This document shows, piece after piece, positions 2,737-44,146 of a stretch of 64,000 bases of DNA. Source of the stretch: Pseudalkalibacillus berkeleyi (GTDB lineage Bacteria; Bacillota; Bacilli; Bacillales; Fictibacillaceae). Under the pieces are notes generated by a model. The model did no database searches. It had not been told where the DNA came from and was given only the letters and a program-made list of their open reading frames with translations. Position 1 is the stretch's first letter. Each line of letters begins with the position of its first letter. A program made the position numbers and the translations under genes. The DNA lies in assembly GCF_021608225.1 (NCBI RefSeq), contig NZ_JAKIJS010000001.1:248001-312000 (forward strand), written 5' to 3'.

Positions 2737-2787
2737 TACACTTAGTGTAAGCGTTTTAATTCGGAACATATATTCCGTATATCGGAA
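2737..2787. promoter_or_regulatory. Candidate operators of the IclR-type regulator
   Basis: Three alternating half-sites are seen upstream of the regulator gene: CGGAA (2762-2766), TTCCG (2773-2777) and CGGAA (2783-2787), giving two overlapping inverted repeats. A separate inverted repeat TACACT-T-AGTGTA lies at 2737-2749. IclR-family proteins commonly bind such palindromes and autoregulate; assignment to this regulator is inference. Confidence 0.5.
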
Positions 2788-2818
2788 CGAAACATTATGG
2801 TAAGACTGAGGTGGATTT

Positions 2819-3586
2819 ATGAAAGAAACAAATACAACTGTCATTAAGGCAATGGCGATCCTGGAACTATTTAAAGCGCACCGCTCATTATCTTTGAAAA
2901 AAGTGATCCATTTGACTGGTTCGCCTAAAACAACAGTTTACAGAATGATCCTTTCATTAGAAGAATCAGGCTTTCTTCGAAAAAATCAACATGGTGAATA
3001 TGAACTTGGATTCGCCTTCTTAGAATTTGGACAATTAGTGAAATCTCGCTTAGATATACGGCAAGTAGCTCTTCCTGTCATGATGAAGTTGAAAGAAGAA
3101 TTAGGTGAAGCAGTAAACTTAATTGTACGTGAAGGAAATGAAGCTATTTACGTCGAGAAGATTGAAACCGATAAGCCTGTAAGGGTCTATACCGGAATAG
3201 GTCGAACAGCCCCTTTATATGCAGGCGCATGTCCAAGAATTCTACTAGCTCACATGTCACAAGACGATCAAGAAAAATATTTGAATCAAGTTAATTTGAA
3301 CCCAATAGCTTCAGGGACGATTACAGATAAGGTTAAATTGATTGAGGTTCTACAAGAATCAAAGCATAGCGGATACACAATTAGTCATTCAGAATTACAT
3401 GACGATTCATCAGCAATTGCTGCGCCGATTATGAATTATGAGGGTGAAATATGTGCAGGCATCAGCGTAGTAGGTCCCGAAAATCGATTCAGAAACTCTG
3501 AAACACTTCCACATTTCATTCAACAAGTTACAAAAGCAGCTTATGAAATTTCTAACCTACTAGGTTGGGAATCTAACACATATTGA
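2819..3586 (+). CDS. kipR: IclR-family regulator of the 5-oxoproline operon (KipR-like)
   Basis: A 255-residue protein with an N-terminal winged helix (about 5-70: KAMAILELFK, SLKKVIHLTGSPKTTVYRMILSL) and a C-terminal IclR effector domain (about 80-250). GAGGTGG precedes the ATG. It is followed after 9 bp by pxpB and heads the operon. In Bacillus subtilis kipR belongs to the ycsFGI-kipI-kipA cluster, here rearranged with the regulator first. It likely senses 5-oxoproline or a related acid and controls the operon through the palindromes just upstream; the effector is inferred. Confidence 0.85.
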   Translation: MKETNTTVIKAMAILELFKAHRSLSLKKVIHLTGSPKTTVYRMILSLEESGFLRKNQHGEYELGFAFLEFGQLVKSRLDIRQVALPVMMKLKEELGEAVNLIVREGNEAIYVEKIETDKPVRVYTGIGRTAPLYAGACPRILLAHMSQDDQEKYLNQVNLNPIASGTITDKVKLIEVLQESKHSGYTISHSELHDDSSAIAAPIMNYEGEICAGISVVGPENRFRNSETLPHFIQQVTKAAYEISNLLGWESNTY

Positions 3587-39422: not shown

Positions 39423-40436
39423 CTAGCGTCGTCCCGATAAGGTTCCTTCATCATGCTTAATTTCCGTTTCCCAAAGCGCTGTGTATGGTTCAAAAAGGTT
39501 TTTCATTTTGTCTTGGATCGATAGACTTAATAAACCGTTACCGACGCCACGCTTAGTGTAACCGAGTGGAATCGTTCTTTTAATTAATTGTGAGTATATC
39601 TCAGCTTCAGATAGTTTCCGGTTAAATTCGTTTTGAGTAATATTGAGAAGTAATGCGAGTGCGCCAGAAACATGGGGAGTAGCCATAGATGTGCCTGAAA
39701 GTTTAGCGTATCGATTATCTGGAAAAGTAGAGAGGATATCGACACCAGGCGCAACCAGGTCAATCTCATCATTCGTATTTGTGAAACGAGCCATTTTTCG
39801 CTTGAAGTCCATCGCACCTACTTGAATGACCTCATTATAAGCACCAGGATAAGAAAATTCGTCTGTGTCTTCATTATTATCACCCTCATTCCCTGCTGCA
39901 CAAACGACGGACACATCATTTTCGACGGCATACTTGACTGCCTCATGAAGTTGAGGTGTGCTTTGTGGTCCCCCTAAAGACATGGAGATCACGCGTACCT
40001 TTTCTCCATTTGGACCTTCCCAATCTACTGCGTACCGAATCGCATCAATGATCCAAGTCATTCTTCCGCTTCCTTGTCCCGTTAGTACTTTTAAGATCAA
40101 TAAATCTGCTAAAGGTGCAACCCCTGAGATTCCATCTGTTGTTCCCGTCGCAGCGACTGTACCTGCAACGTGCGTTCCGTGTCCATTATTATCAAGATAG
40201 TTATTTGGGTCTTTATTATAATCAGTCGTGAAATTCCGACCGCCGATGATTCGATCTTTTAAATCTGGGTGAGATGTTTGACACCCGGTGTCGATCACTG
40301 CCACAACATTTCCGTTACCTTTATCCGCTTGATTCCAAACGTTTGGAGCATCAATCATCTTCACTCCACTAGGTACGTTTTTCAGCTCATCTACGATTTC
40401 TTCCACATGATAAGGAATCAGTCTTACTTCACTCAT
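39423..40436 (-). CDS. Intracellular subtilisin-like serine protease (IspA type)
   Basis: A 337-residue S8 protease without a signal peptide. The N-terminal [10 protein letters not shown] is the LIPY extension that inhibits the active site of intracellular subtilisins until removed. The catalytic triad is in [25 protein letters not shown] and [14 protein letters not shown]. The protein degrades cytoplasmic proteins, typically in stationary phase. AGGAGG is seven bases before ATG 40436; ATG 40442 is too close. Confidence 0.93.
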
Positions 40437-40606
40437 ATACATTCCTCCTATCCTATAGTTAGCTCGGACTAATATTCTGAATTATCAAAAATAATAAAGG
40501 AAAATGCTGTGAATTTCAATAGGGTGATATACCTGAATTTCCATATGGTAAAGTCACTCACCTTGTCATATGGTAATATATGTACTGGAAATTAAGGGGG
40601 GATAAC

Positions 40607-42342: not shown

Positions 42343-43674
42343 TCAACTCATGATAGGGAGTTCGGTACTGATTAGTTTCAAGTCATTTGATAATAAAAGT
42401 CGATTTGATTCAAGAAGGTTGTCAAAGGATTGTTGGTGATCATCTAATGATTTATAACAAATAGCCTTTTCAGATTTGACTAAAGCTAACCAAGAATCGT
42501 TCTTATGAGTATTGAAAATAGATTCAGACTTATTAAATTCCTTAATTGCACTCTGATGTTCTGTCTTTTTCATCAACACTTTACCAAGGGCATAATGACA
42601 TTGGGCCTGGAGGTGTGATTTTCTTTCGGATCGCTCTATACCTAATTGAATATAATGTTCTGCGAGTTCAATATTATCGATATACAAATAGGATAATGAT
42701 AATTCATAGTAATTGTTTACTGCATGTGCAGTGAAATTAAGTTTTTCAGCCTCATCAAGGCAAGCGTGTAGTTCTTCTAACGACTGAACAGCTTTGTTCT
42801 GCTTTCTTAGTAAAATGCCCAAATTAATTCGTGAACCAATATACCGGTGTGTATCTACTACAGGATCGAAATAGTCGATGGCTGATCTAGTAGATAAGAA
42901 TCCTGCTGCATACTTACGCATATATAATTCTGCGATTCCTTTTAACATATAAAAGTGACCATTAGAAAACTTAATGTCGTTCTTCTCCATGATGGCCATA
43001 GCATCATCAACAACGTCCAAACCTTTTTGAAATTCCTTAATACGGCAATAACAAAGGGCTAGATTATAAAGAATATTGATTTCAAGTAGACAGTCTACTT
43101 CTGCGTGATAGGTGTTAATCAATGCAGAGGCTTTCAAAGCAGCGACAATACCTTCTTTATATTTATCTAACTTTCGATTAGAAAGTGTTATGTAATAATA
43201 CACTTCTACAATTTCATTGGTGTCAGTTGATGATAGGTAGGAGAGGGATTCTTTGAAGTGTGTAAGTGCGCTTTCATGTTGATCCATTTTTTGGTGGATT
43301 CGGCCGAGCAATTTATACGCTAACCACTTATTCGGGAAATGAACACTCTTAATGTTGACTAGTTCATTCAATCTACTTTCTGCTTCTGAATACTTTTTTA
43401 CCTTGAATAATGTTTGGCAAATATTTAGTCCTTTTTGTATGTCATCAGCTGTGGTCAATGGCATAGAAGCATCTTTTATTTCACCAAGCAAGTCCCCGAC
43501 AGAAACACCCAGTTTGTATGATAAGTATTCAATCGTTCTGAGGGAGGGAGTAGTCAGGTCTCTTTCAATTAGACTTAACATGGCTCGACTTAACTGATCC
43601 CCTGCTAAATCACCTTGTGTTAATCCTAAATCCTTACGTAATCTTTTAATACGTGTTCCAACACTACTTTCCAA
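42343..43674 (-). CDS. XRE-HTH plus TPR regulator, RRNPP-like peptide receptor
   Basis: A 443-residue protein. An N-terminal HTH (about 6-62: GTRIKRLRKDLGLTQGDLAG, LSRAMLSLIERDLTTPSLRTIEYLSYKLGVS) is followed by TPR-like helical repeats from about 75 to the end (LAYKLLGRIHQKMDQHESALTHFKESLSYL, NILYNLALCYCRIKEFQKGL, HYALGKVLMKKTEHQSAIKEFNKSESIF). This architecture is that of PlcR, NprR and PrgX, whose TPRs bind small imported pheromones. It is divergent from the DP[I/V]WPD precursor gene, 157 bp away, the classical receptor-pheromone arrangement. No GAGG-type site is clear before the ATG. Confidence 0.85.
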   Translation of the reverse strand: MESSVGTRIKRLRKDLGLTQGDLAGDQLSRAMLSLIERDLTTPSLRTIEYLSYKLGVSVGDLLGEIKDASMPLTTADDIQKGLNICQTLFKVKKYSEAESRLNELVNIKSVHFPNKWLAYKLLGRIHQKMDQHESALTHFKESLSYLSSTDTNEIVEVYYYITLSNRKLDKYKEGIVAALKASALINTYHAEVDCLLEINILYNLALCYCRIKEFQKGLDVVDDAMAIMEKNDIKFSNGHFYMLKGIAELYMRKYAAGFLSTRSAIDYFDPVVDTHRYIGSRINLGILLRKQNKAVQSLEELHACLDEAEKLNFTAHAVNNYYELSLSYLYIDNIELAEHYIQLGIERSERKSHLQAQCHYALGKVLMKKTEHQSAIKEFNKSESIFNTHKNDSWLALVKSEKAICYKSLDDHQQSFDNLLESNRLLLSNDLKLISTELPIMS

Positions 43675-43707
43675 TTTCTATCGCCTCCCACTACTATTTT
43701 ACCATTG

Positions 43708-43774
43708 TTGTCAATTCATTAACACAATTTTTAAATAATTTAATATATTACTCAAAAAACGAGTTGACAATTCA
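43708..43774. promoter_or_regulatory. Two TTGNCAATTCA elements in the receptor-pheromone intergenic region
   Basis: TTGTCAATTCA (43708-43718) and TTGACAATTCA (43764-43774) are direct repeats with one difference; the second contains the -35 box of the peptide gene. They are plausible binding sites of the divergent regulator. Confidence 0.5.
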
Positions 43775-43792
43775 AAATGTTAAATTTATGAT
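43764..43792 (+). promoter_or_regulatory. Promoter of the pheromone-precursor gene
   Basis: A perfect TTGACA (43764-43769) and TATGAT (43787-43792) are 17 bp apart, followed by a strong GGAGGTG site. High basal expression is expected unless the overlapping element is occupied. Confidence 0.8.
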
Positions 43793-43831
43793 AAAAATGT
43801 AAAAATATTCAAATTAAAACGGAGGTGCTTT

Positions 43832-44146
43832 ATGGTAAGAGGTTTGAAGAAAATTGTAAATGGTGTTTGTGCAGGTGTTATGCTAGTTGGGATCACTTGG
43901 TCCGGACAGGCGGTAAATGTGGAATGGAAAGAGGGGGGAGCCTCAGAAAACATTTCATTCATCGTGTCTTCCGATCCAATTTGGCCTGACAATGATCCAG
44001 TTTGGCCAGATGGAACAACTGAAAGTGTAGACCCAATATGGCCGGATTCCCCTCAAAACCCCGATGAAGATCCAGTATGGCCCGATGAAAATGCTTCAAC
44101 CAAATCAGACCCGATCTGGCCAGATGATGAACGATATTCCCTCTAA
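43832..44146 (+). CDS. Secreted precursor with five DP[I/V]WPD motifs (putative pheromone precursor)
   Basis: A 104-residue protein. A Sec signal peptide (basic LKK, hydrophobic core, cleavage near SGQA-VN, residue 27) leads to an acidic region holding DPIWPD at 48-53, DPVWPD at 55-60, DPIWPD at 67-72, DPVWPD at 80-85 and DPIWPD at 93-98, separated by varied acidic linkers. Isoleucine and valine alternate. All five DNA copies use different codons, so the motif is kept by selection on the peptide. With the divergent RRNPP-like gene this suggests that processing would release several copies of a short signal. I do not know a described relative. GGAGGTG precedes the ATG. Confidence 0.8.
   Translation: MVRGLKKIVNGVCAGVMLVGITWSGQAVNVEWKEGGASENISFIVSSDPIWPDNDPVWPDGTTESVDPIWPDSPQNPDEDPVWPDENASTKSDPIWPDDERYSL

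Follow-up and report, generated by a model that had tools for sequence, protein, structure and literature searches.

Our results indicate that the divergent gene pair at 42343..44146 of the window (the whole 64,000-nucleotide stretch analysed here, from the 3.5 Mb genome of Pseudalkalibacillus berkeleyi) probably forms a quorum-sensing system of the RRNPP(A) type, NprR-like in layout and with a pheromone core DP[IV]WP; we put the probability of this reading at about 0.83. The two genes lie head to head, and the open reading frames, strands, coordinates, HTH and TPR domains and five DP[I/V]WPD copies were all as claimed in an earlier note, which had also proposed the RRNPP-like reading. That reading is now supported by co-conservation of the pair in 8/8 genomes of the genus, by the motif at 7/15 receptor loci outside it, by 7/7 Priestia plasmid records and by a profile search of the PDB. 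The locus has the following features:

42343..43674, minus strand: XRE-HTH and TPR protein of 443 aa with a TTG start, the putative cytoplasmic peptide receptor/regulator (ORF call)
43492..43650, minus strand: HTH_3 DNA-binding domain of the receptor, residues 9-61 (Pfam)
42388..43449, minus strand: TPR region of the receptor, residues 76-429 (Pfam; AlphaFold2 model with nine helix pairs)
43680..43689, minus strand: ribosome-binding region of the receptor gene, GGGAGGCGAT, identical in 8/8 genus genomes (alignment)
43727..43751, no strand: AT-rich intergenic block, nearly identical in 6/8 genus genomes (alignment)
43764..43792, plus strand: sigma-A-type promoter-like site for the precursor, TTGACA-17-TATGAT, with 11/12 consensus bases and the -35 kept in 8/8 genus genomes
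43821..43825, plus strand: precursor ribosome-binding site GGAGG (sequence, alignment)
43832..44146, plus strand: multi-copy candidate pheromone precursor of 104 aa (ORF call, alignment)
43832..43912, plus strand: basic-hydrophobic leader of the precursor, residues 1-27, with putative cleavage after SGQA (hydropathy, alignment)
43973..43990, plus strand: copy 1, DPIWPD (pattern match)
43994..44011, plus strand: copy 2, DPVWPD (pattern match)
44030..44047, plus strand: copy 3, DPIWPD (pattern match)
44069..44086, plus strand: copy 4, DPVWPD (pattern match)
44108..44125, plus strand: copy 5, DPIWPD (pattern match)

The receptor matched HTH_3 at 25.2 bits (1.7e-5; Pfam cut-off 23) and TPR_12 at 63.4 bits (2.2e-17; cut-off 30.1), and with TPRs, an HTH domain and a length of 443 aa it resembles RRNPP(A) receptors in general (about 250-500 aa, usually with an N-terminal HTH). 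In the window genome no gene lies directly 3' of it on its own strand. When the PDB was searched with a profile of 19 receptors, NprR (9.8e-17 and 4.8e-16; 5dbk, 4gpk), PlcR (9.6e-14; 2qfc) and Rap3T (1.9e-10) were matched along with eukaryotic and designed TPR proteins, and since the designed ones came top, part of this signal is due to TPRs in general. At the level of sequence, the receptor is nevertheless homologous to NprR, PlcR and Rap. A weak AlphaFold2 model (6 sequences, pLDDT 74.6, pTM 0.47) placed nine helix pairs after the HTH, and in fold searches with it general TPR proteins ranked above PlcR, Rap (RapI) and NprR. As NprR was not singled out by these searches, we term the receptor NprR-like in layout and not NprR.

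With the receptor as single-sequence query, the PDB search at E 0.01 gave no NprR match, and this is one of the points which make it unlikely that the pair is simply of the ordinary NprR-NprX kind, in which a multi-copy propeptide accompanies an NprR-like receptor (HTH and nine TPRs), and is already covered by earlier catalogues. Such an assignment would fit the profile search, where NprR was the best-scoring named quorum-sensing receptor, and the nine modelled helix pairs after the HTH. It would also fit the accessible text of PMC9765709, in which NprR is reported from 21 genera and repeats from 17/17 large NprR propeptides, and the available part of PMC10075063, where two systems on a plasmid of Priestia koreensis are classed under NprR-NprX. 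The position of the window precursor, divergently upstream, speaks against it, as for AimR, PlcR, NprR and Rap the same text of PMC9765709 places the pheromone directly downstream of its receptor; moreover, the strings DPIWPD and DPVWP were not found in a string search of 5.39 million papers. The RRNPP_detector catalogue comprises 34 clusters, 21 of them new, according to the available part of PMC10075063, and the window receptor may already sit in one of these or in another earlier catalogue.

The precursor leader has 3 K/R among residues 1-8 and a Kyte-Doolittle 15-residue maximum of 2.03 at residues 8-22. Of 18 precursors, 17 combine 1-4 K/R among residues 1-8 with a hydrophobic segment (KD15 of at least 1.8), the exception being L055, and we infer Sec export via the N-terminal leader. 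A degenerate DNA pattern for DP[IV]WPD gave 5 matches in the 64 kb and 0 in 100 shuffles. In the space between the two genes, the AT-rich block is a possible operator or UP element; promoter-like sites numbered 11 in the whole intergenic region, which is no excess over its shuffles (mean 10.3).

Conservation was analysed in eight genomes of the genus, including Pseudalkalibacillus salsuginis and P. decolorationis as well as three strains catalogued under Rossellomorea, Alkalihalobacillus and Bacillus. The receptor was found in all of them (E 1.2e-164 or better), the other seven being 59-75% identical to the window receptor, and a head-to-head DP[IV]WPD coding sequence was kept together with it in 8/8; seven precursors were intact and one was broken. 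The intact ones hold 5 (window genome, G000), 3 (G005), 8 (G002), 5 (G003), 3 (G007), 5 (G006, besides one degenerate copy) and 11 (G001) exact copies, in arrays reaching 182 aa. Among 34 family genomes the DP[IV]WPD pattern occurred in 9, namely the eight of the genus and G015 (one match), and arrays of three or more copies were seen only at the receptor locus, so that in these genomes the repeat protein was not found without the regulator. G006, G007 and G015 each have a single match elsewhere than at the receptor, and these were taken as chance. The broken precursor belongs to Alkalihalobacillus sp. YIM B00296 (G004, L008 / L079), where an in-frame stop leaves one DPVWPD copy and the receptor is intact.

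Over the 41 copies of the seven intact precursors, a count including the degenerate copy DLAWPG, pS was 0.80 vs a pN of 0.033. The residues D, P, W, P and D were nearly invariant, and the third position was V in 32, I in 8 and A in 1. When species were compared, with DLAWPG left out here and the G004 precursor outside both comparisons, identity was 0.94 in the core, 0.13 in the six residues before it and 0.19 in the six after it. With the core 94% and the flanks 13-19% identical, the part that is kept is the hexapeptide and not the linker; as judged from codon and residue differences, purifying selection acts on the peptide. The alternation of Ile and Val pointed out earlier holds for the window genome (third-position order IVIVI) and for G007 (VIV), and breaks down in G002 (IIVVVVII) and in the other four precursors, which are V only. 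The two mature forms that the alternation had hinted at found no comparative support: Ile occurs in 3/7 intact precursors and 8/40 exact copies, and two forms as a conserved design were rejected on the former count.

Outside the genus the spread of the receptor was patchy. An order-wide search (397 genomes, E 1e-30) matched 14 genomes, three of them Pseudalkalibacillus, and 0/13 listed genomes from other genera of the same family were matched at this threshold. When a member served as query within four of the families, relatives were recovered in 6/16, 1/43, 4/26 and 1/12 genomes, two of them newly added (G811, G812). This patchiness across families suggests horizontal transfer. No relatives were obtained from a genome-contig scan with the single receptor protein, from viral contigs (queries A2 and the Priestia receptor), from a phage collection at E 1e-10 (window receptor and L046) or, for L046, from plasmids at E 1e-15; a class-wide profile search with four candidates scored per genome returned 1/398, its own genome only, at a threshold (E 1e-60) that was too strict.

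The receptors outside the genus, including those on Priestia plasmids, have diverged to only 22-35% identity. Apart from these plasmids, 15 loci were tested, and P[IVLM]WP was found within 400 nt divergently upstream at 7/15, representing five lineages and four families (L057 is an identical copy of L055, and a single genome contributes both L088 and L090). The chance of a match was 0.0009 per locus (1000 dinucleotide shuffles of each locus), and the background in the window was 2/630 strand tiles outside the precursor. The 15 loci do not include L054 (the L087 locus), the repeats L071-L076, L083, L085, L091 and L092, the receptor fragments L084 and L089, or the weaker paralogues L012 and L002. 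Head to head with their receptors are peptides reading ...TKTDPVWP-stop (L046), ...NFDPVWPTVK (L047), ...VADPVWPGGPAISSL (L052) and ...PPIWPDL... (L088 and L090), and the ORF at L055 / L057 has the motif, ...LSDPIWPDA..., and no leader. Comparison thus gives good support to the earlier proposal that DPxWPD is the pheromone and the TPR protein its probable receptor.

The facing peptides outside the genus are about 28-57 aa long and single-copy, and some end exactly at the motif. This leaves little that could be structural, and as the repeat flanks are not conserved either, it is very unlikely that the repeat protein, with its tandem WPD motifs, serves a structural or binding role in secreted or membrane-anchored form and is merely controlled by the regulator, even though arrays extend to 182 aa and export is a prediction from the leader. 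The pheromone reading has to accommodate the 8/15 loci where the motif was absent (L048-L051, L053, L056, L086 and L087), two of which have altered forms, DPIDDVP at L087 (= L054) and TWPIDGV at L086; receptor and motif can evidently part. In a tree holding only relatives of the window receptor, with L086 left out and several long branches of unsure placement, the eight genus receptors formed one clade (100/100), whereas L046 and L047 grouped with the motif-less L048-L051 and L053 (98/96), so that receptors with the motif do not make up a single clade. This would mean either repeated loss of the adjacent peptide or a looser link between receptor and peptide than thought.

The link was also approached from the side of the peptide. 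DPVWP followed by T[AG][AG] occurred at 10 sites in the 397 genomes, and the pattern read backwards at 2; three of the 10 were set aside as their last codon is TGG. Two of the seven DPVWP-stop sites (L110, L111) belong to ORFs that have both a start and a leader, and 2/2 of these leader ORFs adjoin XRE-TPR genes. The remaining five are in leaderless frames of 7-44 residues, and no XRE-TPR gene was seen by eye among the large ORFs within 1.5 kb on each side. L111 is L046 again and the L110 peptide is that of the Priestia plasmid locus L099, and as both lineages were already known the test adds a control and no new lineage; a scan for DPVWP-stop cannot detect the Pseudalkalibacillus arrays.

In seven Priestia plasmid records the receptor is 22-24% identical to the window receptor over 64-86% of its length, and in 7/7 a leader peptide or a pair of them (two peptides in 5/7) lies divergently upstream. 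These peptides have DPVWP or DPVWPRV at their end and are about 28-34 aa long, according to which start is taken. Their endings are the strongest indication that the mature signal stops at DPVWP or close to it. The DPVWP pair (L098-L104) is located among arsinothricin genes, e.g. L104:1091-8790, and its neighbours in 7/7 records include an RCCLKC-tail radical SAM protein, an ArsR-type regulator and an ATP-grasp protein. At L104 this radical SAM protein was identified as NCBIfam ArsL with 699 bits (cut-off 450), and there is an ArsN1 resistance acetyltransferase nearby. This gene arrangement suggests cell-density control of an arsenic antibiotic on Priestia plasmids; a literature search on quorum sensing and arsinothricin or arsenic gave no match naming RRNPP.

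Peptidase genes were found near several of the receptors, in different families:

39423-40442, minus strand: S8 peptidase near the window locus (Pfam)
L010:1-948, minus strand: S8 peptidase near the L010 receptor (Pfam)
L047:3-1010, minus strand: M4 protease beside the L047 receptor (Pfam)
L052:104-1153, plus strand: S8-family peptidase beside the L052 receptor (Pfam)

An S8 peptidase near the locus was also recognised in L077 and L081 by sequence signature, the M4 protease is found beside both L047 and L084 (one genome), and the S8-family peptidase beside L052 and L086. Such a protease neighbourhood resembles NprR biology, and from their position the S8 and M4 peptidases are possible targets of the receptor. 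The nearest neighbours of the window pair are a BrkB-family membrane protein, the S8 peptidase and two proteins that gave no Pfam match, and inspection of the surrounding ORFs by eye showed no evident modification gene, so that a multi-core RiPP or bacteriocin precursor controlled by the HTH-TPR protein is hardly credible, in spite of several conserved cores behind a leader. Five SBP_bac_5 (PF00496) peptide-binding proteins scored over the cut-off in the window genome, and Opp-type import of the peptide is thus possible.

The same genome holds a second XRE-TPR protein (L002, G000:C3:20497-24606; 1450-2754), with a 162-aa leader protein on the same strand 3' of it (2769-3257). In the small protein a 15-residue unit of the type IDQTPEPTSNPSAVA occurs nine times, the ninth in degenerate form, and the protein is a candidate for a second multi-copy precursor; the units are almost identical in DNA too and do not, therefore, demonstrate selection at the peptide level. 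A further XRE-TPR paralogue, L012 (G007:C14), has a divergent 42-aa leader peptide holding DEIWP.

Taken together, we propose the following for the window pair as a quorum-sensing system. The precursor would be transcribed from its own sigma-A-type promoter and exported through the N-terminal leader, and extracellular proteases would cut it to several copies of a short peptide with the core DP[IV]WP(D). The peptide would build up with cell density, be taken up by an oligopeptide permease and bind the concave face of the TPR superhelix in the HTH-TPR protein. Binding would then alter how the receptor acts on its target promoters. The intergenic region shared by the two genes would probably be one of these, which would amount to autoregulation. 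As the peptide is short and easily synthesised, the pheromone claim is directly testable.

A broader and more tentative possibility, which we consider somewhat doubtful, is that DP[VI]WP is a pheromone word common across Bacillales, almost the same pentapeptide being read by receptors 22-35% identical on chromosomes and plasmids of several families, so that species could hear one another. If so, Pseudalkalibacillus would have raised the dose, with up to 11 copies per precursor, and the same word would stand beside arsinothricin genes on Priestia plasmids. Related receptors without a DPxWP peptide at the examined loci are found at L048 (G385) and L049 (G328), and G385 also has the DPVWP pair L110, with a peptide equal to that of the Priestia plasmid. 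As a further related receptor that lacks a peptide of its own, L048 is possibly a candidate for eavesdropping. The peptide pheromones of this superfamily change rapidly together with their receptors, and the accessible text of PMC9765709 describes fast evolution of the peptides. The apparent novelty lies in the pheromone code and in the way it has persisted while receptors diverged. The multi-copy layout, regarded as unusual in the earlier note, was rejected as a novelty, as it is published for NprR, Rap, AimR and PlcR in the available parts of PMC9765709 and PMC11343458. A five-residue word kept at <25% receptor identity would make a natural set for studying how TPR receptors read peptides, and would also allow cross-species signalling tests, while multi-copy arrays with non-conserved linkers are natural substrates for finding the maturation protease.

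Among the known systems, NprR-NprX of the Bacillus cereus group is alike in its HTH, perhaps in nine TPRs (here nine helix pairs in a weak model), and in the proteases beside some relatives (M4 at L047, S8 at L052), and it is unlike the present pair in its pheromone, as the NprX pheromone is a heptapeptide and the core here is DP[IV]WP. Multi-copy propeptides are a further likeness to NprR, and a further difference is that the precursor is divergently upstream in 8/8 genus genomes whereas the NprR pheromone is downstream (both for NprR from the accessible text of PMC9765709). The available part of PMC12700828 groups the nine-TPR receptors as QssR, NprR and Rap and assigns PlcR a five-TPR fold. 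PlcR-PapR shares the HTH-TPR regulator with the window pair, and a peptide whose secretion is known there and predicted here, and differs in its TPR number from the nine helix pairs of our weak model. The unnamed RRNPP_detector clusters, including 'subfamily 21' of Alkalihalobacilli, are alike in combining a Bacillaceae chromosomal receptor with an adjacent propeptide (PMC10075063 and PMC12700828, in their available parts); subfamily 21, compared here by description only, is said there to fall inside AimR when the tree is built from sequences. Rap-Phr systems with duplicated Phr propeptides (Rap3T, Rap105) likewise join a TPR receptor to several pheromone copies, up to 8 in the accessible text of PMC11343458, but Rap is without an HTH domain according to that of PMC9765709, whereas the window receptor carries one.
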